From Zygnema cylindricum (Eukaryota; Streptophyta; Zygnematophyceae; Zygnematales; Zygnemataceae), in the NCBI GenBank assembly GCA_037447655.1, contig JBBHKE010000576.1:1-64000 (forward strand): 64,000 bases of DNA. Direction: 5' to 3'. How positions within the stretch are numbered: position 1 is the stretch's first letter; every line of letters begins with the position of its first letter. Positions 33,073-63,089 of the stretch are shown here, one piece after another. Made by a program: the position numbers and the translations under genes. The notes beneath the pieces were generated by a model. That model was not told the DNA's origin, ran no database searches, and saw only the letters and a list, made by a program, of their open reading frames with translations.

Positions 33073-33633
33073 CGTCATGGTTCGCTGTGGAAAGGACTAG
33101 TTGTGTTATGTTTTGGCGTCCTGTTGCAGGATCTAGTCTTGGTCCATTGTTTGGTTTCAGTTGGCGTCTTGTGAGTTGTTTTGTGTTTCGTCCGTTGCGT
33201 ATTGTCTTGTATGGTATTTGATGTCATTTAGTGCGACGTACTTGTAACGTTCGGTTCAGTGCGCACCACTCAATTTCGGCGCACACTGTTTGATTAGGCG
33301 CACGTTCGCCTACCTTTTGTCACGTCCTTATGTTCACTTTTATCACTAGGTGTTAGTGGTAGTTTTAAGTCGGTTAGGTATAAGTGTTTTAGTAAAGAGA
33401 GGTGAACAATTTAGTAGCAAAAAAGGAGAAGGAAGAAAACATTGTAAAGAGAAAAGATCTCCAATTAAAGAAATCTTTTGTTGGAGAATTCTTTGGGCTC
33501 CTATCATGACTGAATGCTTTCGCATGCTCTTTGAGATAATGTAATGTAATGTTCTATTCCATTTCTGGCCGTGCTCCTTGAACATTTCTGGCCATGCTCC
33601 TTGAACATTTCTGGCCGTGCTCCTTTTCTATCA
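33073..33633 (+). repeat. 5' LTR of the copia element
   Basis: 561 bp. Its first base has mutated (CGTCATGG against TGTTATGG in the 3' LTR). Near its end a unit of about 25 bp, TTTCTGGCCGTGCTCCTT, is repeated three times (33562-33629); the 3' LTR has one. Confidence 0.9.
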
Positions 33634-34004
33634 CTTCGTATCGGAACAGGTAGAAGTACTTTGTATCCGCTATCGGCAATTCAGCAGTGACTAGTAGTGT
33701 TAAAATGGGAGGAAAGAAGAAGGGTGCAGCTCCACAGTTTGCACCTGTGCAATCTGGGAGGAAAGAAGAAGAGTGGAGCAAGAAGGATACAGCTCCACAG
33801 TTTGCATGTGTGCAATCTGACACTCCAGTGACACTCCACTTCAATGACACTCCAGTGACACTCCAGTGACACTCCAAAGATGAGTCATAGGGGCTTCAGT
33901 GCTGCCCAATTTGAAAAAGAAGAAGACACGTTACCTACAGATACGTTTGTACAGAAGAGTAAATAGGAGTAGAGGTATTTTTGACATAGTAGAGACTTTA
34001 GACA

Positions 34005-35053
34005 TTGTTGACTGGAGTTCTTCAATGTGTGCTCTCATTTGCCCTTCAAGGGGGCAGGCTGCTAGTTGTCATTAGAGGTAGCGGATATGTTGAAGGAGAA
34101 ACTGAAAATGACAGGAGAGAAAAAATTCGGAAAGGGAAATTGAAGGCAGAAGATGAGTCTAATTTGGAGGAGGACAGTGATGAGGAAGATGAGATACTGC
34201 CCGGCAAAGTCGTTCTCCTCAATGGAAGAACTACTTTATTTGGAAGAGATACATCAAAGGATAACTTAAACTTCAGCGTCTTTGGAAAATTGGAGTTTGT
34301 TACTCCAGCGGAGCCCATGCCGATTTTTGATCGAAAGGTAAGGAATAAATGGAGACGAAGGAATGTTGCCGTCTTCACCGGATTGATGCAAACTTACACG
34401 CCCGCAGTTCATGAGTACTTTCTCACACATGATTCTGCAAATGAATGTTGGCGGGCCATTGAAAACGAATTCGAAAAAAGAAATCAAAATCGCGGCCAAC
34501 ATGCATATACCGAATTTCTCAATTTTAAGATGAATCCGAATGAATCGATCGGATATGCGTCGAACCGGTTCAATATTATTGTGGAACGACTTGCGTCTAT
34601 CAGTCACTTTATTATTTAGGCGGATAAAGTAAAGTGATTGGCTTTCTGAATGCCTTGCCGGATAGGCTTGTCCATCTCAAAGAAATTTTGATACTATATT
34701 TTGTATTTTGAAAAAGAGGTTGACTTACGAATTCATTTTATCATATTTAAAAGATAACGAAGATAATGCAGTGAGTTCTTCTCAAAGAACTCCACCGGTT
34801 CTTTAAATACTACCAATTCTAACTCCGTTGACTTATTTATCTCCGTGGTGGCGGAAGAGGAGGAAGGGGAGGAGGCCTGAGAGGTATAAGAAGGGGACAA
34901 ATGAAAAATAGAAATCCAAAGGCCTTTCTGTCGGCCCCCGATCTGAATTTTGTCTCATGTTTTCATTGCAACAAACTTGGACATTTGGCGATGTCATGTC
35001 CCGATCGGCAATGTTACCTTTGCGGTAAGTAGGGGCACCTAAGTTCTCAATGT
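34005..35053 (+). pseudogene. copia gag and CCHC zinc knuckles (broken)
   Basis: 34005-34619 encodes a capsid-like region (segments such as HEYFLTHDSANECWRAIENE), acidic near its N-terminus. The frame is then broken. Two CCHC knuckles follow at 34958-35053: CFHCNKLGHLAMSC is intact, and the second (CYLCGK, stop, GHLSSQC) has a stop codon inside it. A Gly/Arg-rich stretch follows to about 35215. In an intact element this protein would package the RNA. Confidence 0.8.
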
Positions 35054-35209
35054 TATGCAAAATGAGAAGGCGAAGGTGGAGGTGGTAGAGGTGGATTTAA
35101 TGGCTGCCGTGGTGGCTTTAATGGCGGTCGTAGAGGATGTCGCATAGGAGGTCGAGGAGGAGAACGTTTTGGAGGTTGTGGTGGTGGCCGTTTTGGCGGT
35201 CAAGGACAT

Positions 35210-35476
35210 TTGTTTAGCGAAAGTGGATATGAAGAAGAAGAGGGATCAGGTGCTGAGATATTTACTTGTCTCATCCTCTCGGTTGATTTATCGGCAAAAA
35301 ATGGAAATGTGGAGTGGGTAATTGATACGGGATCATCACATCATGTTTGCACTAATGTGACATTCTTTGACGACTTGCGACGGTTGGCAATTCCAAAGAA
35401 AATCACGGCTGCAAGCGGACAAATTATTTCTGTCACCAATGTGGTAACCGGTACGTTTAGACCTTCCCACATTTAA
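35210..35476 (+). pseudogene. copia aspartic protease region
   Basis: Contains VEWVIDTGSSHHVC, the retroviral-type aspartic protease active-site motif of copia polyproteins (D-T-G). The frame stops at 35476 and resumes in another frame at 35505 (LHISGGSVNLLSV), consistent with a frameshift. Confidence 0.8.
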
Positions 35477-35739
35477 TTCTGAAGAGAGAGAGCCCGTAAC
35501 CCGTTTGGTCAATGTACTTCACATTTCCGGTGGTTCAGTTAATTTATTGAGCGTCTTGCCGATCCAACGTGCGGGTGGTAGTGTATATGCCTTTGGAGAT
35601 TCAACAATTCACAATGTTAATGAAAAGGGAGTCGTCATTGGTGAAGGGGAAGTCACGAAAAATATGCATAGTCGATTAGTATGGTAGCGGACTAAGGTTG
35701 ATTCATATCCGGATATGATCTTATATTTCAAAATTTAGA

Positions 35740-36893
35740 GGGTATTTAAGTCTTTGGCATCGCCGAATGTGCCACACATCTGAGGGGAGACTAAGGAAGA
35801 TGTTAAAAATCAGTTGAGTGCGAGGTTAGATTTGGCCTCGGGCGAAACGTCAATGGATGTGAGGGGCGTAGTCAAGGGAATCAAATACAAAAACCTCATC
35901 CACCGAAAAATATAAAGTTTTGATCCTGACATCCTCTCGAATTAGTCCACATCAATTTGTGTGGAAATGTGAAACCGGAGAGTATTAGAGGAAATCGGTA
36001 CATCATGGTTATTGTCGATGATTACTCACGTTTCTCACGGGTAATTATTCTAGCATTAGAGAGGTTTAAGGAGTGGCACATCATGGCGGAACGATTATGT
36101 GAGAGGAAATTGAAGTCCATTCGATCGGATAATGGTGGTGAATATGTTGCTTTTGATGGATATTGTCTAGAATGGGGAATAAAACATCAATATACGGCAC
36201 CTTACTCCCTGGAACCAAATAGAGTGGCTGAAAGCAAAATCGAACACTCTAAAAAATGGTCTGAGCTATGGTGCATGCATCCGGTCGATCTAGTCACTTT
36301 GGGGAGATGCACTCTTAACCGCTAATTATACATGTAATCAGCGACTTACTTCCATTTCGGGCGATAAAACACCTCATGAGTTGTGGCACGGGCGAAAACC
36401 AACTCTACATCACTTGCGGATATGGGGATGTCGTGTTACCGTATAGGTAGAATCACAAAATCAGCGAGGAAAATTTTCATTGAGAAGTTGGTCGAGAATT
36501 TTTGTTGGATATAGCCCGCGAGGGAATCTTTACCGAATTTATGATCCCTCACGGCACACAATTATTGAATCACGAAATGTGAACTTCCATGAGCACCTGA
36601 AATCCGCAATCGAAAGATCGGCCAAATTGCGGAGAAATTTGGATTTTCATGACGAAGCAAAAATTTCTAATTTCTCGGACATTGAGGAGTCCAATGATGA
36701 CATTGAACCTGATCCGGCTATCAATGTTATGATCGGGAAACAAAAATCGGACATTGAAGAAAAAATTAAGAACATTGACGTAGAATCGCGACAATCGAAT
36801 TCTCGAATGACATCCGAATCTCAACATATTCAAAATCATGCTCTTCAAGGCATACTGAATTGGATAAAGAAAAAGAGTCGGATGTTACTTTAA
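35740..36893 (+). pseudogene. copia integrase (broken)
   Basis: The pre-integrase His motif is visible near 35755 (LWHRRMCHT). The core follows in 35957-36325 with GNRYIMVIVDDYSRFSRV, SDNGGEY and NRVAESK. The usual first catalytic Asp (family HIDLCG) reads HINLCG near 35953, so the catalytic triad is damaged as well as the frame. The C-terminal part reaches about 36893. Confidence 0.8.
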
Positions 36894-37081
36894 GGAGGAG
36901 TACACAAGAATCTAAAGGGAGAAAACCGGCGAGATTATCTTTTGATAGGAAAAAAGGAAATATTGAAAATTCACATTACTTCATTTCGGCGACTAAGAGG
37001 GAGGATTTCCTCCTCTAGCAATTACTTTGTAAAAAGTACGCCGGTGACCCCGATCTTACTCCGAATCACGAAATTTGGGTG

Positions 37082-37997
37082 ATTGGGAGTCAAAATTGCA
37101 ACCGGCTTGGGAGAAAGAATATAAGTCCATAGTAGAGAAACAAACATTTGAAGAAGTTGATTTATTCGAGGGGAAAAAAACGATCGATGCAAAGTGGGTC
37201 TTCAAGAAAAAACTGGTGCTTGTGGAGAAGTAATTAAGTATAAAGCTAGACTAGTATGCAAAGGTTTTCAACAATAGGAAGGAAATGATTTTATAAAGAC
37301 ATGCGCCAATTGTAAATTTTGACTCTTTACGGATGATTATGGCGATTGCAGCAGTTGAAAAAAAACACATCCTTCAAATGGAAGTTGAAACCGCGCCCTT
37401 GAACGGAGAATCTGAGGAAGAAGTGTACATGAAGATCCTTGAGGGAGTTGACGCGAAAGAAGAGAAGGTGAGGGAAGTCTCTGTACGGGTTAAAGCAAGT
37501 CTCTGTATGGGTTAAAGTAGGCCCCGGGTTAAAGCAAGTCTCTGTATGGGTTAAAGTAGGCCCCTTGTACTTCTTACTTACGGTGGCATTCGGTGTTAAC
37601 CAATTTTGGATTTAAACGGACTACTTCACATTCGGGCGTTTACATTAAGGGGGAAGGAGAAGACCAAATAATGTTCCTAGTTTACAGGGATGATTTTTTG
37701 ATGACATCGGATAATCTAGACTTAATCATTGAATTTAAGGCCTTTCTATGCCTTTTTTTTAAGGTAACAGACCTTGGAGACGTCCGTTACATTTTGGGGA
37801 TCAAAGTGATTAGATATCCTAATGGAGATAACAAACTGAGTCAAGCTCAGTATTGCAAAGAAGTATTAGCGCGGTTAGGCATGTCGAATGCAAAACCACT
37901 TTCTACGCCTATGGATCCTAAGTGTCATTTAAGGAAGTTTGAGGATGAATCGTTGGTCAACGTTCCATATCGAGAAGCCATCGGAAGTCGTATGTAA
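37082..37997 (+). pseudogene. copia reverse transcriptase (broken)
   Basis: Begins with the conserved KSIVEKQTFEEVD and AKWVFKKK motifs (37110-37215), is interrupted, and continues at 37593-37997. The catalytic YVDD box is altered to LVYRDDFLMTS, followed by VTDLGDVRYILGIKV. A unit of about 38 bp (GTTAAAGCAAGTCTCTGTAT) is duplicated near 37488-37560. Confidence 0.85.
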
Positions 37998-38107
37998 TTG
38001 AGTGTAGGTACTCGTCCGGATATGCGGCGGCATTTTCAACTTTGAGTCGATTCTGTCATGAACCAAAGAAATCGCATTGGGAGGCTGTCAAACATAACTT
38101 TTGATAT

Positions 38108-38611
38108 TTGGCCGGTACGATTGATATGGGATTGACGTACAAATCGGCAAGTTGCATTGGTTACTCCAATTCCGACTGGGCAAGAGATTACGATTCTGGA
38201 AAGTCAACGTCCGGATACGCATTCATGTTCGGCGGTGCAACAGTTTCGTGGGTTTCACGTCTGCAACCAATAGTTGCATTAAGTTCAACGGAGGCTAAGT
38301 ACATGGCGGCTTGCCATGTCACTAAAGCATCAATTTGGTAAAAAGAGATGATCGGTGAATTGAAGATTTCGAATGTGTGTTTGCAATTTATTAGAGATAG
38401 CATGAGTTCTATGGCACTTGTTAAAAATTGCGTATTTCACAAGCGTACAAAGCACATCTATATTCAGTGGCATTTTGTGCGTGATTTGGTCACCTTAAAA
38501 GAGGTGGAGTTTGTATTCGTGTTGACTTTGGAAGATGCCGCAGATTTACTTAGTACGTCGACTACCTATGATCTGTTTGTCGGAGGTCGTCCAAAGTTAG
38601 GGTTAGCATGA
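38108..38611 (+). pseudogene. copia RNase H domain (interrupted)
   Basis: Contains GYSNSDWARDYDSGKSTSGY and LSSTEAKYMAA, the standard copia RNase H signatures, then a stop at 38339-38341, and resumes with HKRTKHIYIQWHFVRD. It ends just before the 3' LTR. Confidence 0.85.
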
Positions 38612-38653
38612 AATGCATTCTTGTTTGCAATTTTCCACATCGAAGAGGAGGAT

Positions 38654-39208
38654 TGTTATGGCTCGCTGTGGAAAGGACTAGTGTTACGTTTTGGCGTCCT
38701 GCGGAATTACGGATTTGGTCTTGGTTCATTGGTCTTGGTTCATTGTTTGGTTTCAGTTGGCGTCTTGTGAGTTGTTTTGTGTTTCGTGCGTTGCGTATTG
38801 TCCGGTACGGTTTTTGATGTCATTTAGGGCGACATACTTGTAACGTTCGGTTTAGTGCGCATCATTTAGGGCGACGTACTTGTAACGTTCGGTTTAGTGC
38901 GCACCATTCAGTTTCGGCGCACAATGTTTGATTAGGCCCATATTCGCCTACCTTTTGTCATGTCCTTATGTTCAGTTTTCTCACTAAGTGTTACTGGTAG
39001 TTTTAAGTCGGTTAGGCAAAAGTATTTTAGAAAAGAGAGGTGAAAAGTTTAGCATACCAAAAGGAGAAGGCAGAAAATACATCATAAAGAGGAAAGATCT
39101 CCAATTAAATAAAATCTTTTGCTGAAGAATTCTTTGGGCTCCTATCATGACTGAATGCTTCTGCATGTAATGTTATGTCCCATTTCTGGCCATGCTCCTT
39201 TTCTATCA
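38654..39208 (+). repeat. 3' LTR of the copia element
   Basis: 555 bp, begins TGTTATGGCTCGCTG and ends CTATCA. It carries its own 45-bp tandem duplication (ATTTAGGGCGACRTACTTG, about 38820-38908) not present in the 5' LTR. Confidence 0.9.
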
Positions 39209-40653: not shown

Positions 40654-41324
40654 ATAAATTAGAATAGTAATAAATGATAATAACAATAAATAGTACTATG
40701 GTATTAAATTATAGTAATAATAACAATATTTATTTATAGTAACAAGTAGCGATTGTAAAAAATGTTTAGAGTATATATAGAACTTATTTATTAATGAAAT
40801 ATAATCAATTATAGATATTGGTGACAATACAGTGGCAACAATGAAAAAAGAATAATAAAAAAGTCTCATGGGGGTTTGAAAGCTAGCGCAATGAATTAAG
40901 AGACCATTTGAGTATTTGATGCCACAGAGGTCTACAATACAACCAATTGAGTGGAAGCATTCCATCGTCCATCGGTCAACTCACATCCCTCCGATACTTG
41001 TAAGACATGTGACACTAATGATAAACGTTTTATAAATTATGTAATGAGAACTAAGAAACAAATTGCAAAAAATAGTATTATCAAGAAAAATAATTACTTA
41101 AATTATTAATTACTATTTGATACAAAAATTACTTACATACATATTAATGTTTAAACCATAAACAACAGTAACCACCAATAATAACCACACATTGTAATAA
41201 TTATAAAACAGTTAATTATGTCAATGAGGCAAAAATTGATCAAAAAGCATTAATGGTAAATTTAAAAAAGTGAAAAATGAAAATAAATATAAAAAAATAA
41301 AAAAATATAAGTATTCTTATATTT
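40654..41324. other. AT-rich spacer
   Basis: Very AT-rich, no gene seen. Near 41264-41340 AAATAT/GAATAT hexamers grade into the satellite that follows. Confidence 0.6.
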
Positions 41325-44288
41325 ATGAATATGAATATAAATATAAATATGAATATGAACGTGAACGCAAACGTGAATGTGAAAGTGAATGTGAACGTGA
41401 ATGTGAACGTGAATGTGAATGTGAAGGTGTATGTGAATGTGAATTTGAATGTCAATGTGAACGTGAAAGTGAACGTGAATGTGAACGTGAGTGAATGCAG
41501 ACGTGAATGTGAGTATGAACTTGAAAGTGAACGTGAATGTGAATGTGAAAGTGAATGTGAACCTGAATGTGAACGTGAACGTGAACCTGAACATCAATGT
41601 GAATGTGAATGTGAATGTGAACGTGAATGTGAACGTGAATGCGAACGTGAACGTGAACGTGAATGCTTATGTGAATGTGAACGTAACCGTGAACGTCAAT
41701 GCGAACGTCAATGCGAATGTCAATGCGAACGTCAATGTGAATGTCAATGCAAACGTTTAAGCCAATGTGAACGTCAATGTGAACGTCAATGTGAATGTGA
41801 ACGTGAATGTGAACGTGAATGTGAACGTGAATGTGAACGTGAATGTTTATGTGAATGTGCATATGAACGTAACCGTGAACGTGAACGTTAATTTGAACGC
41901 GAATGTGAACGTCAATGTGAACGTCAATGTGAACGTCAACGTAAACATCAATGTGAATGTCAATGTGAACGTGAACGCCAATTTGAACGTCAATGTGAAC
42001 AACAATGTGAACGTCAATGTGAATGTGAACGTCAATGTGAACGTGAATGTGAACGTGAATGTTTATGTGAATGTGCATATGAACGTAACCATGAACGTGA
42101 ACGTCAATGTGAACGTCAATGTGAATGTCAACGTGAACATCAATGTGAATGTCAATGTGAACGTGAACGCCAATTTGAACGTCAATGTGAACAACAATGT
42201 GAACGTCAATGTGAACGTCAATGTGAATGTGAACGTCAATGTGAACGTGAATGTGAACGTGAATGTTTATGTGAATGTGCATATGAACGTAACCGTGAAC
42301 GTGAACGTTAATGTGAACGTCAACGTGAACGTCAATGTTAATTTCAATGCGAACGTCAATGTGAATTTGAACGCGAATGTGAACGTCAATGTGAACGTGA
42401 ATGTGAACGTGAATGTTTATGTGAATTTGCATGTGAAAGTAACCGTGAACGTGAACGTAAATGTGAACGTGAATGTGAACGTGAATGTGAATGTGAATGT
42501 GAACGTGAATGTGAACGTGAATGTGATTGTTAACGTGAATGTCAACGTGAATGTCAATGCGAACGTCAATGTGAATGTCAATGCGAACGTGACGCCAATG
42601 TGTACGTCAATGTGAACGTCAATGTGAACGTCAATGTGAATGTGAATGCGAATGTGAATGTCAATGCGAATGTGAATGCCAATGTGAACGTCAATTTGAA
42701 CGTCAATGCGAATGTTAACGTCAATGTGAACGTCAATGTGAATGTGAAAGTCAATGTGAACGTGAATGTGAATGTCAATGTGAATGTGAATGTGAATGTA
42801 ACCGTGAACGTGAACGTGAATGTGAATGTGAACCTGAATGTGAACGTGAATGTGAGCGTTAACGTGAATGTCAATGTGAATGTGAATGCGAAATTGAACG
42901 TCAATGTGAACATCAATGTGAATGTCAATGTGAATATGAAAGTGAATGTGAATGTGAACGTTACTGTGAACGTCAATGCGAACATCAATGCGAACGTCAA
43001 TGTGAATGTCAATGCAAACGTTTAAGCCAATGTGAACGTCAATGTGAACGTCAATGTGAATGTGAATGTGAATATGAACGTAACCGTGAACGTGAACGTT
43101 AATGTGAACGTCAACGTGAACGTCAATGTTAATTTCAATGCGAACGTCAATGTGAATTTGAACGCGAATGTGAACGTCAATGTGAACGTCAATGTGAACG
43201 TCAATGTGAACGTGAATGTGAACGTGAAAGTGAATGTGAACCTGAATGTGAACGTGAACGTGAACGTGAACGTGAACGTGAACGTGAACTTGAACGTCAA
43301 TGTGAATGTGAATGTGAACCTGAATGTGAACATGAACGTGAACGTCAATGTGAACGTGAATGTGAACGTGAATGTGAACGTGAGCGTGACCGTGAATGCT
43401 TATGTGAATGTGAACGTAACCGTGAACGTGAATGTGAACGTTAATGTGAACGTCAATGTGAACGTCAATGTGAACGTCAATGTGAATGTGAACGTGAATG
43501 TGAACGTGAATGTGAACGTGAATGTTTATGTGAATGTGCATATGAGCGTAACTGTGAACGTGAACGTTAATGTGAACGTTAACGTGAATGTCAATGTTAA
43601 TTTCAATGTGAACGTCAACGTGAACATCAATGTGAATGTCAATGTGAATTTGAACGCGAATGTGAACGTCAATGTGAACGTCAATGTGAACGTCAATGTG
43701 AACGTCAACGTGAACATCAATGTGAATGTCAATGTGAACGTGAACGCCAGGTTGAACCTCAATGTGAATGTGAATGTGAACGTGAATGTGAATGTGAAAG
43801 TGAATGTGAACCTGAATGTGAACGTGAACGTGAACGTGAACGTCAATGTGAATGTGAATGTGAATGTGAACGTGAATGTGAATGTGAACGTGAACGTGAA
43901 TGCTTATGTGAATGTGAACGTAACCGTGAACGTGAATGTGAACGTTAATGTGAACGTCAATGTGAACGTCAATGTGAACGTGAATGTGAATGTGAACGTG
44001 AATGTGAACGTGAATGTGAATGTGAATGTTTATGTGAATGTGCATATGAACGTAACCGTAAACGTGAACGTTAATGTGAACGTCAACGTGAACGTCAATG
44101 TCAATTTTAATGCGAACGTCAATGTGAATTTGAACGCGAATGTGAACGTCAATGTGAATTTGAACGCGAATGTGAACGTCAATGTGAACGTCAATGTGAA
44201 CGTCAATGTGAACGTCAACGTGAACGTCAATGTGAATGTCAATGTGAACGTGAACGTCAATTTGAACGTCAATGTGAACGTACTGCAA
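41325..44288 (+). repeat. hexamer satellite, (GTGAAY GTSAAY)n
   Basis: About 3 kb of six-base units, mainly GTGAAC, GTGAAT and GTCAAT, in constant phase. Read as codons the plus strand gives alternating Asn-Val; the minus strand gives Phe-Thr or His-Ile/Val alternation in other frames, so ORFs up to 623 codons are a by-product. Longer phrases recur: GTTTATGTGAATGTGCATAT appears at about 41845, 42059, 42265, 43525 and 44028, showing a nested higher-order structure. The left edge decays into GAATAT units in the same phase. The right end stops at an assembly gap. Confidence 0.95.
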
Positions 44289-44289
44289 G

Positions 44290-44299
44290 NNNNNNNNNN
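44290..44299. other. assembly gap (10 N)
   Basis: Ten N between the hexamer satellite and a G run. Unresolved repeat length is likely. Confidence 1.
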
Positions 44300-44398
<99 letters not shown>

Positions 44399-44468
44399 GG
44401 GGGGGGGGGGGGGGGGGGGGGGGGGAGGGGGGGGGAGAGGGAGAGAGGGAGGGAAGGAAGGAGGGAAG
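44300..44468 (+). repeat. G homopolymer run grading into GGGAGA
   Basis: About 125 bases of G with only a few A, then a GA-rich edge. Directly beside the gap, so a sequencing or assembly artefact is possible. A true G/GA tract would fit the purine tracts elsewhere in the window. Confidence 0.8.
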
Positions 44469-45719
44469 TTATTCAGAAAACTTCAGTGAAAAAAGATAAC
44501 CAGAAGATATAAAAGAGTAAGATTGTTTTTTATTATTTGAAGTGGTGGAAATGGAGTGAGGTTAAGGAAGGGAGTTGTTTTAACATAATTTTGAAAATAA
44601 ACATTTGTTCTTTAAAATATAAAGAGGGAACAAAAAAACCATAAACGAAATGAAATAGTGAACTACCCTAAAGGCATTGATGCAATTTGAGTATTTTTCT
44701 TTTAAAAAATCCTTAAAACTCGAAGGAAACCTAAAAGAAAAAAAATACACAGCTTAATATATATATATATACATATAATAAATATAACATAATATATATA
44801 ATATAATACATATAATATATATAATATATAATAATAAATTATATAATATAATTACAAACGGAAATACTGAGCTCAAATAGTACCTTCACATGGTGGTAAG
44901 GTCATATGGTATGTTTAAGTAGGTGAAAATAACAATTCGTACGAAAAGAGGTTAATTTCATCTGAACCTGCGAAAAGACAAAAAATAACACCAATTTCAA
45001 TTCAATTGTTTGTTAAATTCACTTTCCGGATTTTTTGACTCACGATCATATTGGTGGAAAGGGGGGAAGCGAAAGAAAATAAGAAAGAGGGAGAAAGAGA
45101 GAGAGAGAAGGAAAAGAGAGGGGAAATAAATAGAAAAAGGAAAAGAAACATATTTTCTTCCTCACGCTTCTTCCTCTACAAAAGAACGTGATAAACAATC
45201 GGCAAAAATCAAAATAAAACTATTTCACTATTCCATAAAGCCACTCTAAAATGCTTAACCCTAAAATCACAAAGATCCGTTCCAGTATTTTTTCTTGCCT
45301 TGAATTGACCGAATAAAGTACACTGTAAAAACAAAACGAAAAAAAACTGACCAGCAAGGTTTTTTTCTCGAAAAAAAAAGGCGTATAATGTCCAAAGGGC
45401 CACTGTAGAACGAAATTATGACGGCAAACAGAAGGAAAAAGACGTCTATGGCTCCTGCAGCCAGCTTTTATGAAACGTGGACGTTTTGCATCTTCGGCAG
45501 CAATGAAGTTTCAACGGAAAGTCGCCCTCGTCGCACTGATCGTACAGAAACCGTACGAATTATATTTTTTTCTGTAATGTTTTTGAAATTTCTAGCGCGT
45601 TAGGGAGGTTTCGCACGCTGGAAAAACGATTTATCTACTACACGCCAGCAAAACTGTTGTTTAAACGGTAAAAGAATTCCAAGACCACGGTAGGGCCCCC
45701 CGAAACAAGTGGAGATGAT
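44469..45719. other. AT-rich spacer, no gene recognised
   Basis: Contains TATA-type dinucleotide repeats (44755-44855) and a GA-rich patch (45060-45145). Nothing coding was recognised. Confidence 0.5.
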
Positions 45720-58002: not shown

Positions 58003-59213
58003 TTGTTCAAATCGCACGATTTTTTCATTTTTCCCAAGTTTCTACGTATTGTACGTGAGTTTTGAAAAAATCGCAAAAAAACGTCAACTGTAAACTGAAC
58101 GGACAATTTACGAGAAACATACAGACAAATTACAGTAGCTGGAAAAATTACGGTAGCTGAACAGAAAGTTCACGGATGTATATAGAATTTTATCGTACAT
58201 CTACGGACAATTTCAAAAAGAGACGTTGAAGCATCACACTATTTGCGCGTCGTAAGTTCAAAATGTGTACGAACGTCTTCTTCAAATTTTTGAAAAGAAG
58301 TCGCCACGAAAGTAAAAATAGATGAAGGACATATATGTATGATTGTTTTTACTTTTTAATTAACATGTTACGTTGTGCAATGTTGAATGATGAAAAATGT
58401 CATCTGCATATGGGTTGTACTGTGTTTTTTTGAAGTCGCATGCTCATGCTCTCAGAGAAGTAGAGAGAGAAGGGCCATGGCTCTCGACAAAATTATTCTG
58501 ACAAAAAAGTGGGGTAAACTTCTCACGGCGTCGTCCGTAACCAGTTGATGTACGTGTTCTAGTACACACGTGAGGTGTGATAATTATTTAATTAATTAAA
58601 ATAGTTTATCGCTCATTTAACAAAAAGTGTACAAATTGCGGTACATGTTGAATTCAATTTTTTAATATGTACGGATTTGTACAAAAATATTCATTAACGA
58701 TTTTTACGATTTTTTCAAATCGATCTCTCCAGTTTCTACGTATTGTACGCGCGTTCGAATCCTGTGTAAATTGCGTTTTGAACAATTATGCAACATACCG
58801 TATTTCTAATTGTATTCACCATAGTTGTTCAAACCGTTTAGTAATAACGATTCAATCGCAGCGAATTATACGAAAGCTCTCCCTCCCTCTCTCCCTCCCT
58901 CCCTCCCTCCCTCTCTCCCCGATTTGAAAAAATTGTTGAAATCGTTAGTGATCTTATATCCATACTATTCTGTACATGTAAAAAATTCCGTACGATCGTA
59001 CATAATTCAAACTTACAGCGCGCAAATGGCGTAACACTGCAACATCTCTTTTTGTAAAAGTCCGTACATTTCCGTAAAATACCGTACATTTCCCGTAAAT
59101 TTTCAGTTCAGTTTACCAGCCAGAAAGTTCTCCGCGTTTTTTTGCGATTTTTTCAAAGTCACGAATCATAAGTAGAAATTGGAAAAAATGAAAAATTCGC
59201 ACGATTTGAACAA
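58003..59213. mobile_element. putative 1.2-kb element with long inverted ends
   Basis: The left end TTGTTCAAATCGCACGATTT and following CAAAAAAACG block recur inverted at 59095-59213, the right end complementing to TTGTTCAAATCGTGCGAATT. Arms of about 100 bp. The interior has further partial copies (58697, 58817) and the duplicate segment of 57574. No transposase ORF. It abuts the miniature LTR element. Confidence 0.55.
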
Positions 59214-59273
59214 TGTTAGAAATCGGCGATATTCAACTTATCGCAAGGGCGCCAAAGTGTTAACTTTGGAAAA

Positions 59274-59345
59274 TGGCCAAGTCGGGGACCGAACCCAGGA
59301 CTTGTGTAAACCGTACACTAGCTCTACCAACTGAGCTACCCAGCC
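59274..59345 (-). other. tRNA-like sequence in the left repeat
   Basis: The minus strand starts GGCTGGGTAGCTCAGTTGG (acceptor and D arm, A box) and ends with a TTCGGTC T loop and CTTGGCCA, directly followed by TTTT, a Pol III terminator. The 5' and 3' acceptor halves pair with several G-U. The anticodon stem GTGT/ACAC closes, but position 33 is not T, so an ordinary tRNA is unlikely. Confidence 0.6.
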
Positions 59346-59538
59346 GATGTGTACGCAAGCGCCTAATACCAAATTTATACGGCTATGAGCAGCGCACTGG
59401 CGAACCAGCTAACATCGCGATACACACGTGTGGCGAACCAGCTTACATCGCGATACACACGTGTGGAGTCCAAAGTGGACAGTTCTCCAACACGCCACCT
59501 CACGATGTACTCCATCTCGTGTAGCTTGCCATCGCCCC

Positions 59539-59553
59539 CTGGCTCCGATACCA
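59539..59553 (-). promoter_or_regulatory. primer-binding site of the miniature LTR element
   Basis: Minus-strand TGGTATCGGAGCCAG immediately follows the LTR end CTAACA. It matches the initiator-Met tRNA type site with one difference. Confidence 0.75.
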
Positions 59554-59613
59554 TGTTAGAAATCGGCGATATTCAACTTATCGCAAGGGCGCCAAAGTGT
59601 TAACTTTGAAAAA

Positions 59614-59900
59614 TGGCCAAGCCGGGGATCGAACCGGGACCTGTGTAAACTGTACACTACACCGCCAAACGCTATTAGCGTAGGGTTTTAAAGGGGACAT
59701 AAAGCAATTAGCGTGGTTTACGCTAATTGAATTTGGAAATTTTCAAAGAAATCGATTACTCTAACTAGGAATTAGGTTATTTTTTAAATAGTGTGGATAA
59801 TTCTATTTGAGAATAATAATAAAAAAAAGCGGGACGGGATTAGCGTACACAACGCTAATAGCGATTGGCGGTGTAGCTCTACCAACTGAGCTACCCGGCC
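59614..59900 (-). other. tRNA-like sequence in the right repeat, split by an insertion
   Basis: The two halves (59614-59659 and 59874-59900) equal the left copy with better pairing: 5' GGCCGGGTAGCTCAGTTGG, T arm GGTTCGATCCCCGG. The insertion at 59660-59873 lies between the D arm and the anticodon arm. Confidence 0.6.
59660..59873. mobile_element. TA-flanked inverted-repeat element inside an LTR
   Basis: Ends CACCGCCAAACGCTATTAGC and, complemented, CACCGCCAATCGCTATTAGC, with TA at 59658-59659 and 59874-59875. 214 bp. The sister LTR at 59314-59324 reads ACACTAGCTCT without the insert, giving a direct empty-site comparison: exactly the element plus one TA was added. Confidence 0.92.
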
Positions 59901-59941
59901 GATGTGTGCGCAAGCGCCTAATACCGAATTTATAATGGGCA

Positions 59942-60846: not shown

Positions 60847-61679
60847 TTAGACTCGGTACTGAGCTCCGGTAGGAGGCACTCCATTGGCTGCTGCTCCCGC
60901 CGGAACTGGATTCGTGTTGACTCCGTCGCGGCCAACGGATTCGTAACTGCCGACGCCGTATCCTTCGCTTTGCGCCGCCGCGTTTTGAATCATAATGTCC
61001 TTTGGACGCCTCTGGTACTGCATGTGCTCCCACCGGTTGAACAGCAAGTACACCCACAAGACTGTGGAGATCTGACACGCCAGAAGAATCTGAACCACAA
61101 AAAAGAAAAAAGTTATTACCAAGAGAAAAAAGGAACAAAAATTAAAAAAGGCGGGAAACGGAGGAAAAGGGTTTTGAGTGTTATGGTTGAAGTGTATGTG
61201 TGTGTGTGTGTGTGTGTGTGTCTCACTCTCTCTCTCTCTCTACCTCCCATTCGCCTTACTACTCTCTTCTTGAGGAGAGCGAGCTCTCTCTCCCTCTCTT
61301 TCCCTCTTCCTCATTCTCTCTCTCCCTCCCTCTCTCTCTCTCTCTCCTCCCTCCCTCCCTCTCTCCCTCTCCCTCCCCCTCCCCCTCTCCCTCTCCTCCA
61401 CTTACCACGAGAGATCTTGGAATTCCCCACATCGCCTTATAAATATTGATTCCGAGGAAAATGTTGTACCAAGCGAGGCCCACGACTCCGAGGCCGATTG
61501 TTAAATGCACAATGTACCACGGAACACGCAGACCACTGCCGAGTCGAGGGCGAACAATGGCCAAAAGGGGTTGGAGGAGGAGAAAACCCACAATAAATAT
61601 TCCCAATTTGGGGTGCAAACCGGAACCACTCCATCCTTCTTCCCTGAAAACCTGTTGAAATCAAGATGGGAATTTGAGC

Positions 61680-61712
<33 letters not shown>

Positions 61713-62346
61713 GAGCATGAAATGTGAAAGACTAATAAAGTGTTTAAATTTTTTTTGGGCAATTAGCACAGTAATGGTGGTTACCACCTCAAATTCCGTA
61801 CATAGTCTCTTACAAGACAATTAGTGTTGACAAAATTTAAGTTGCGATTCACACGACTATAATTCTCGACATTTTTGTCTTCTTATGGAACCACTCTAAA
61901 CAAAATGACTTCCAAATTCAAACTTCACAACACAAAATTCAACCCTCCTACCAACTTTCAAACTAAAATTTCACCTTGATCCTTAGCACTTAAAAAAAAC
62001 ACGAAAAAAAAAAAAAAACCCAAAAATGAAATATACATACATTGAACTTCGTGAGTGCAATAATCGCTCCGGCGATAATTAGTGCGGCTCCCGTGACTTG
62101 AGTCAAAATATGAAGAAGAACCCATCGTCGCGTCCCGTGTCGTCCCAAACGGGCGATTAAAATTCCCACCGGAAGAACGACGGTGAAGCCGGCCCACATG
62201 AGCCATCCATGAGCTTGGTACCATCCCTTGGAAGTCAGGGCTCCCTGTCCTTGTCCTTCTACTTCTTCTTGAGAAAAAGCATAAGAGACAAAAGAAAGAA
62301 GAAACATGGCTAGAAGGAGAAGTTGTAATGGCATCCGGAGAGCCAT
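60847..62346 (-). CDS. cytochrome b561 domain protein with signal peptide, 3 exons
   Basis: Exons (transcript order) 62041-62346, 61406-61651 and 60847-61089, phase-0 introns, 264 residues. Residues 1-25 form a hydrophobic signal peptide ending near YAFSQ. The b561 core has about five hydrophobic helices, with four histidines at the usual spacing: H46 (AHGWLMW), H79 (VLLHILTQ), H115 (LHPKLG) and H151 (WYIVHLTIG), expected to hold two haems. The last exon gives a final helix and WVYLLFNRWEHMQYQRRP, then a polar Gly/Asn-rich tail. Layout and the WEH motif match plant b561 proteins lacking a DOMON domain (Arabidopsis At2g30890/At4g18260 type). Expected role: trans-membrane electron transfer, probably from ascorbate. 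Intron 2 carries GT and CT microsatellites; intron 1 has a 34-base T run. All key residues are present. Confidence 0.93.
61197..61395 (+). repeat. GT then CT microsatellites in a b561 intron
   Basis: (TG)n at about 61197-61219, followed by CT-rich repeats to the exon border at 61405. Intronic. Confidence 0.85.
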
Positions 62347-63089
62347 TTTTGTTAAGGTGAGGTAGAAGAGAAGATGGGGAGATGGGGAAATGGGAGAAGG
62401 GAGAGGGAGATGGGAGGTGGGCTTAGCTTAGAAGAATGCTTTTAGAAAATGTTATTAAGTTTCGAAGCGTTTTAGTAGAGGCCGGGAAGGGCGGGAGATT
62501 TCGAGTTCTTTTTCGTACTTTTCGGTTGACTGTACGGTAGTTTACTTTTTCATTCTTTTATTTTTTGTTTTTGACTGGCTGTTGGTAGTGGTCCGTACGA
62601 GTTGTATGGTACGGTATGCTGTGTTGGCAGTCTTTTCAAAGGACGTGGCGTTACGTTAGTCAAGATGTTCGTCAATCTGGGGCGTCGAGGTGCCACGCAG
62701 TAAAAGTATGCACAGGTTTAGACGCGACACGTGGCAGTTTTTTACCTTGCATGCGTTGAAGAATCCGCCAGATTGCTAAAAGTTATGTTATGATGCGACG
62801 GACCTTAACCGAGCCAAACCGTCCTTTCGTACATGTACTACACGTGTCTGAGAACGTGAAGAATTCGTGTGGCAGGAAAGGAACTGATGCAACTGGCTGT
62901 TAGAAACAGACGTGGAAGCTGCAGGGCGTTGTTTGACCATCTTGACTGGGTGAACGTGTATGACGATTTGTCGTTTGATTTTTTGTTTCTTGCCGGTCGA
63001 CGAGATAGTGTTAGGACAAGATCTGGCCGTCAGATCCAGGTCACGAGTCCGACGACTGACGGTTATGGGATGTTGGCCAATAACTACTA
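62347..63089. other. 5' flank of the cytochrome b561 gene
   Basis: The promoter should lie here (gene reads leftward). A purine-rich patch (62355-62425) sits just upstream of the start codon. No confident TATA box or other gene was seen. Confidence 0.4.

Follow-up and report, generated by a model that had tools for sequence, protein, structure and literature searches.

What does a tRNA-shaped sequence do when it lies inside the long terminal repeats (LTRs) of a miniature retrotransposon? The question is raised by a locus near the end of a 64,000-nucleotide stretch of DNA from Zygnema cylindricum (contig JBBHKE010000576.1, positions 1 to 64,000), which we refer to as the window. A preliminary description of the sequence had proposed a terminal-repeat element of the TRIM type, in which a tRNA-derived unit occupies the place that 5S rRNA has in Cassandra elements. 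This holds: Rfam and ARAGORN recognize tRNAs in the LTR, the genome contains further copies, and these are bordered by 5-bp duplications. The arrangement was thought to be undescribed, but it is already known, as Kojima 2024 (PMC10886601) had defined Helenus in just this way. The window copy is very probably a degraded Helenus-type TRIM, a non-coding LTR element of about 553 bp, dependent on enzymes that an autonomous LTR retrotransposon supplies.

The element lies on the minus strand, as do all of its parts given below, and it is damaged: the 5′ LTR is truncated and split, and the 3′ LTR carries a duplication. The two direct repeats first noticed, 59,214-59,379 against 59,554-59,659 plus 59,874-59,934, are indeed present, with 93-95% identity. 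It was also correctly seen that a primer site contacts one of them, since the right-hand repeat ends ...CTAACA on the minus strand with TGGTATCGGAGCC immediately next to it (59,541-59,553). We take this sequence to match the 3′ end of a plant-type initiator tRNA-Met. The repeat of 166 bp is not the whole LTR. The sequence 5′ of it is also common to the fetched copies, including those where the primer site follows the repeat, and therefore the LTR starts further out; in other copies it begins 80 bp further 5′, at TGTTGGAGAACTG, and measures 246 bp. With the borders of those copies, what had looked like almost no interior becomes an interior of 61 bp (59,493-59,553), and the right end of the element moves from 59,941 to 59,934.

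With these borders, which were taken from other copies and checked in the window, the 3′ LTR occupies 59,214-59,492 (TGTTGG...TAACA). Its 279 bp correspond to the 246 bp of the reference copy plus a 33-bp tandem duplication in its 5′ part (59,398-59,463, a direct repeat of 97%). The tRNA-like unit of this LTR, at 59,274-59,345, has an A box, a B box and pairable arms. The TTTT reported directly after the 72-nt unit is present at 59,270-59,273 and is a possible Pol III terminator, and TATAAATT (59,372-59,379) starts 34 nt ahead of the unit. The interior has matches in its own genome and ends, just ahead of the 3′ LTR, in a polypurine tract (59,493-59,503) that reads GTGAGGTGGCG in the window and GTGAGGGGGCG in several other copies. 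The 5′ LTR (59,554-59,934) lacks its first 80 bp and is interrupted within its tRNA-like unit by a 214-bp inverted-repeat insert (59,660-59,873) with the terminal repeat CACCGCCAATCGCTATTAG and a duplicated TA; LTR positions 81-141 lie at 59,934-59,874 and positions 140-246 at 59,659-59,554.

Four TRIM copies have a transposon at an identical TA (GAGC-TA-GTGTAC) within the tRNA-like unit: the window copy (59,660-59,873), L061 near 471, where only the left TRIM junction is seen, L062 near 1701 on the minus strand, and L080 at 1738-2279. The terminal repeats of these transposons (CACCGCCAATCGCTATTAG or a variant of it) resemble each other, but their insides do not. We considered an insert family that targets tRNA genes as such and dropped the idea; other window copies of the 214-bp family sit in GTAC-rich sequence, so a preference for a TA beside GTAC is the simpler and likely reading. 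On the other side of the TRIM, a long inverted-repeat element at 58,003-59,213 (terminal arms of 38 bp, 87% complementary; inner pair of 23 bp, 100%) adjoins the LTR exactly at 59,213/59,214. No clear target duplication was found at the ends of that element.

We searched the genome of the window, 352.8 Mb in 2689 contigs, for relatives. The 166-bp repeat has at least 41 matches there, with the best 40 of 356 candidates scored, and the interior at least 42, with the best 40 of 86 scored. We call this family A. Its LTR runs TGTTGGAGAACTG...TTCTAACA (246 bp in the reference copy), and the non-coding interior between two LTRs is 61-62 bp long, starts with TGGTATCRGAGCC in most of the copies printed and finishes near GTGAGGGGGCG. 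The copies display LTR borders, a tRNA-like unit in the LTR, a primer-site sequence, a purine tract, 5-bp duplications, both single-LTR and two-LTR forms, and LTR pairs that are nearly identical.

The target duplications were counted in 79 LTR chains from 72 loci, some of which are one place in two overlapping loci; 38 chains have both outer ends and distinct flanks. Exact 5-bp duplications border 23 of these 38, namely 15/26 single-LTR and 8/12 two-LTR rows, compared with 7 matches in 1406 mismatched flank pairs. Other lengths are rare (3 bp, three cases; 7 bp, one; 4, 6 and 8 bp, none). Fifteen copies have no exact duplication, and in five of these (L020, L038, L040, L045 and L059) one flank is element-like, so that none is expected. 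The duplication evidence comes from copies other than that in the window, whose 5′ LTR is truncated. The genome-wide copies and 5-bp duplications that the preliminary description had suggested looking for are therefore both found. Across 15 neighbouring LTR pairs the median divergence is 0.029 substitutions per site and one pair is identical, thus the family moved recently.

These results bear on a different identity, a tRNA-derived SINE whose flanking repeats and primer site are coincidental. A tRNA-like head with A and B boxes is what a SINE would have, but the duplications, exactly 5 bp long, lie at constant LTR ends, copies occur with one LTR or with two, and a primer site and a purine tract are present, which leaves this reading with next to no chance. 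We found neither SINE copies without LTR borders nor a lack of two-repeat copies among the fetched loci, and every fetched copy contains LTR sequence, although a 166-bp query with its best 40 of 356 candidates scored favours complete LTRs. The single unit, the A-rich or simple tail, the duplications of variable length and the absence of LTRs that mark SINEs are not seen, and for the fetched copies a SINE is refuted.

Some TRIM copies lie close together. Two of them, L009 (680-3461) and L011 (726-3215), are about 2 kb apart on one contig and have a common 3′ flank and different 5′ flanks, a pattern pointing to local duplication or recombination. Inverted arrangements of copies occur at L064/L082, L045, L059 and L075, and these resemble an inverted array reported for maize TRIMs.

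How tRNA-like is the unit? A 72-nt unit had been claimed for each repeat of the window copy. That at 59,274-59,345 is intact and scores 31.9 bits with the Rfam tRNA model (gathering score 29, E 1.3e-4, 851 bp searched); the right-hand unit is split by the 214-bp insert. A whole-window Rfam search lists no tRNA and default ARAGORN finds none, whereas at an 80% threshold ARAGORN reports a tRNA-Thr(GGT). Its folding z-score is -0.76 and its minimum free energy (MFE) structure is not a full cloverleaf. The unit in the window copy is decayed. The proposed check with these programs succeeds better elsewhere: of 34 loci scanned, 30 have a tRNA by ARAGORN, mostly Thr(GGT), and 27 by Rfam (31.7-48.6 bits), and the MFE structure is a tRNA-like cloverleaf in all three other copies folded (z-scores of -1.4 to -2.1). 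Rfam lists tRNA and no 5S rRNA in the LTR, and we rejected Cassandra itself as an identity.

The calls in 30/34 and 27/34 loci are also what ordinary tRNA genes lying by chance in repeats would produce. This reading is very improbable, as the calls fall at one constant place in a dispersed LTR, most two-LTR elements contain two units, and the isotype differs among closely alike copies. The predictions range over Thr-GGT, Thr-AGT, Asn-GTT, Asp-GTC, Glu-CTC and Lys-CTT, and this drift argues against a decoding role. One practical consequence is that Helenus-type LTRs can inflate tRNA gene counts, as the ARAGORN result (30/34 loci) illustrates.

We aligned 31 units, leaving out 12 of 43 distinct units for length differences. 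Of 620 pair cells, 96.8% form the expected pair; with the pairing slid, the figure reaches 44.5% at most. However, none of the 20 pairs is altered on both sides among the 31 sequences and a shuffle control (96.9%) is not exceeded, therefore covariation lends no support. Conservation differs with the level of comparison. Between subfamilies (51 versus 16 copies) the unit differs at 3/72 positions and the remaining LTR at 28/174 (Fisher p 0.010). Among copies of the main subfamily, variation per site is much the same in the unit (0.032) and on the U3 side (0.033), thus no constraint is visible in dispersed copies. Taken together, the two levels fit selection on source copies that is followed by neutral decay. 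Among 66 distinct copies, TTTT stands directly after the unit in 52 and TATAAATT lies 34 nt upstream in 41; nine copies have GTAAATTC instead and no TATA at that place.

These features can be compared with Helenus, a TRIM with tRNA-derived LTRs that the accessible text of Kojima 2024 (PMC10886601) reports from fungi, animals and one plant, Selaginella moellendorffii (120-bp LTR, 85-bp interior), and places with Cassandra and Ajax in a proposed TRIMp3 class. Among open-licence papers, Kojima 2024 is the only one found on TRIMp3 or on Helenus as a TRIM retrotransposon. The label Helenus-type, as we use it, rests on arrangement, by the description of the listed Helenus families. In this genome, as in Helenus, a short non-coding element has an A- and B-box-bearing, tRNA-derived sequence in each LTR (unbroken only in the 3′ LTR of the window copy), and two such LTRs enclose a primer site and a purine tract. 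Its approximately 553 bp, with an interior of 61-62 bp, lie within the 311-1263 bp given in the available part of that paper for Helenus, which has no coding interior. The 5-bp duplications (23/38 in family A, 9/18 in the family B described below) also agree with those given there for fungal and plant Helenus. In contrast, the parts of the literature available to us indicate that Cassandra, which shares a Pol III gene sequence in the LTRs, a TGGTATCAGAGC primer site and tandem arrays, holds 5S rRNA and not tRNA (Kalendar 2020, PMC7215508). PbTRIM of ants is likewise a TRIM, in an animal, but has 4-bp duplications and a tRNA-Leu primer site, and the available text mentions no tRNA-like LTR (Zhou & Cahan 2012, PMC3532108).

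Fungal Helenus is mobilized by Copia machinery, according to the accessible text (PMC10886601), and Copia is the most likely source of enzymes for the TRIM described here. The window contains a decayed Copia at about 33,074-39,208 with pieces of gag, integrase and reverse transcriptase; its LTR-like repeats are about 76% identical, its primer-like site is a degenerate TCGTATCGGAACAGG, and it is old. When an autonomous partner was sought in the window, no TRIM module matched this element. Two further features of the window are a very long low-complexity repeat at about 41,260-44,500, with several frames open on both strands and a short N stretch, and two exon-like frames at 61,259-62,427 on the minus strand. 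The latter presumably resemble a membrane protein of the plant cytochrome b561 type. Their sole Pfam match, which is CD20-like, falls below threshold, and a protein search with the cytochrome-b561-like exon yielded 46 candidates, none of them at E <= 0.001. The Copia domains, the type of primer site and the look of these frames are in keeping with a plant host.

Family A has company. Among the 30 loci that the interior search provided, two had other LTRs with other tRNA-like units, which we call families B and C. Family B has an LTR of 229 bp and at least 68 genome matches, with the best 40 of 937 candidates scored. It is independent in this genome: in a sample of 18 places that each contain at least two close matches (a few more such places exist), ARAGORN calls tRNA-Glu(CTC) in all 18 and exact 5-bp duplications border 9 of the 18 elements, compared with 3/306 in the control. 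One family B locus, L096, has a truncated 5′ LTR and no duplication. Family C was encountered only within mosaics. With one copy of each compared, resemblance among the LTRs of the three families is confined to the tRNA-like unit, to which B and C add some 21 bp on its upstream side. Unit identity is 63% for A/B and A/C and 85% for B/C; outside the unit LTR identity is 50-55% (44-51% for subfamily a against B and C), figures that stand without an unrelated-sequence control. The interiors, again from one copy each, match mainly in the first 15-19 bp, the primer site, and in the purine tract. Rust fungi carry several Helenus families per genome, as the accessible text states (PMC10886601), and families B and C go beyond what that text covers.

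What, then, might the unit do? We infer that transcription starts at or just upstream of it, through the A and B boxes and perhaps with the TATA box 34 nt upstream, and that its roles are those of a promoter and of homology for strand transfer; decoding is not among them. It would then form much of the repeated R region at both ends of the RNA. Reverse transcription would be primed by the initiator-Met tRNA, the tRNA-like R region would carry the first strand transfer and the primer site the second, with the finished product inserted by a Copia integrase. Judged from its sequence, Pol III transcription of the element is plausible. The TTTT straight after the unit is a difficulty for Pol III, and speaks against any simple Pol III transcript of full length: in family A and in the one family B copy examined, most Pol III RNA would stop after about 76 nt at the run in the 5′ LTR. 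The family C copy examined, a single one, lacks a T4 run in LTR and interior alike, and Pol III is not one simple explanation for all families. The full RNA might come from some read-through, in which case R would span the tRNA start up to the T run; alternatively, Pol II might begin a TATA-driven transcript at about the same position.

The second of these amounts to an identical element driven by Pol II from the TATA box 34 nt upstream, in which the unit would be a SINE or tRNA-gene relic kept mainly as R-region homology. This has an appreciable, if minority, chance of being right. The constant distance of TATAAATT in 41/66 distinct copies and a TATATA at -32 in the family C copy both fit it, as do the TTTT of the 5′ LTR, which would halt Pol III, and the lack of any T4 stop in family C. 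However, TATA is missing from this place in the examined copies of subfamily a and family B, all four modules retain sequence resembling an A box and a B box, and the unit is the main LTR portion common to the three families.

The mosaics bear on the proposed R region. A module map of 103 loci, which hold 37 distinct A-interior places (28 from the interior search and 9 new) and 18 of family B, was drawn with A, B and C modules, so that mosaics with other families would escape it; families mix at three places only. The first, L072/L084, reads LTR_B - int_C - LTR_C - int_B - LTR_B - int_A - LTR_A, with the first LTR_B cut inside the tRNA-like unit. ATATT stands at both outer sides, and three families thus lie within a single non-repetitive 5-bp duplication. 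The second, L066/L085, reads hybrid LTR - int_C - LTR_C - int_A - LTR_A and has GGGAG, in low-complexity sequence, on both sides; its hybrid LTR is A in the 5′ part and C in the 3′ part, and switches within the tRNA-like unit. The third, L069, reads cut LTR_C - int_A - LTR_A.

In all six cases within these mosaics an interior is followed by the LTR of its own family, and the cross-family joints of complete modules lie at the LTR end and primer site. Repeated intermolecular plus-strand transfer at the primer site would produce joints of this kind. An intermolecular first-strand transfer in R would likewise account for the hybrid LTR, and this would put the tRNA-like unit inside R. We suggest, at somewhat less than an even chance, that tRNA-bearing TRIM families swap parts while they are reverse transcribed, with the shared tRNA-like R region and primer site as points of exchange; repeated intermolecular transfers would build the chains prior to integration, and each chain would be inserted whole. 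The rival explanations are DNA-level recombination and assembly error. Two different families at the outer ends of a chain within one non-repetitive duplication are less easily explained by either, yet such cases are few, two in number with one in repetitive flank.

Related structures are known from other elements. Three LTRs and two interiors within a single 5-bp duplication are described in the available text of Sabot & Schulman 2007 (PMC1950507), where switching between two packaged RNAs is the explanation; those elements are full-size (Angela-like, Squiq, Opie) with outer LTRs alike, while here up to three TRIM families are joined and the outer LTRs are unlike. Tandemly arrayed TRIMs likewise hold several LTRs and interiors within one target duplication, but the accessible part of Gao 2016 (PMC4717578) mentions no family mixing, and the paper nowhere uses the term tRNA. 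Tandem arrays are noted for a zebrafish Helenus family in the available text of Kojima 2024 (PMC10886601), which does not mention cross-family mosaics. The accessible open-licence literature on template-switch elements and TRIM arrays likewise contains no cross-family TRIM mosaics that we found.

In summary, a class with only one plant listed gains a genome in which more than one Helenus-type family is present. The mosaics make it testable where the RNA of these elements begins and ends, and whether parasites of one machinery recombine in one particle. If the exchange proposed here is true, the tRNA-shaped LTR would be a promoter and at the same time a common exchange port, through which otherwise unrelated TRIMs would recombine and share one mobilizing machinery.
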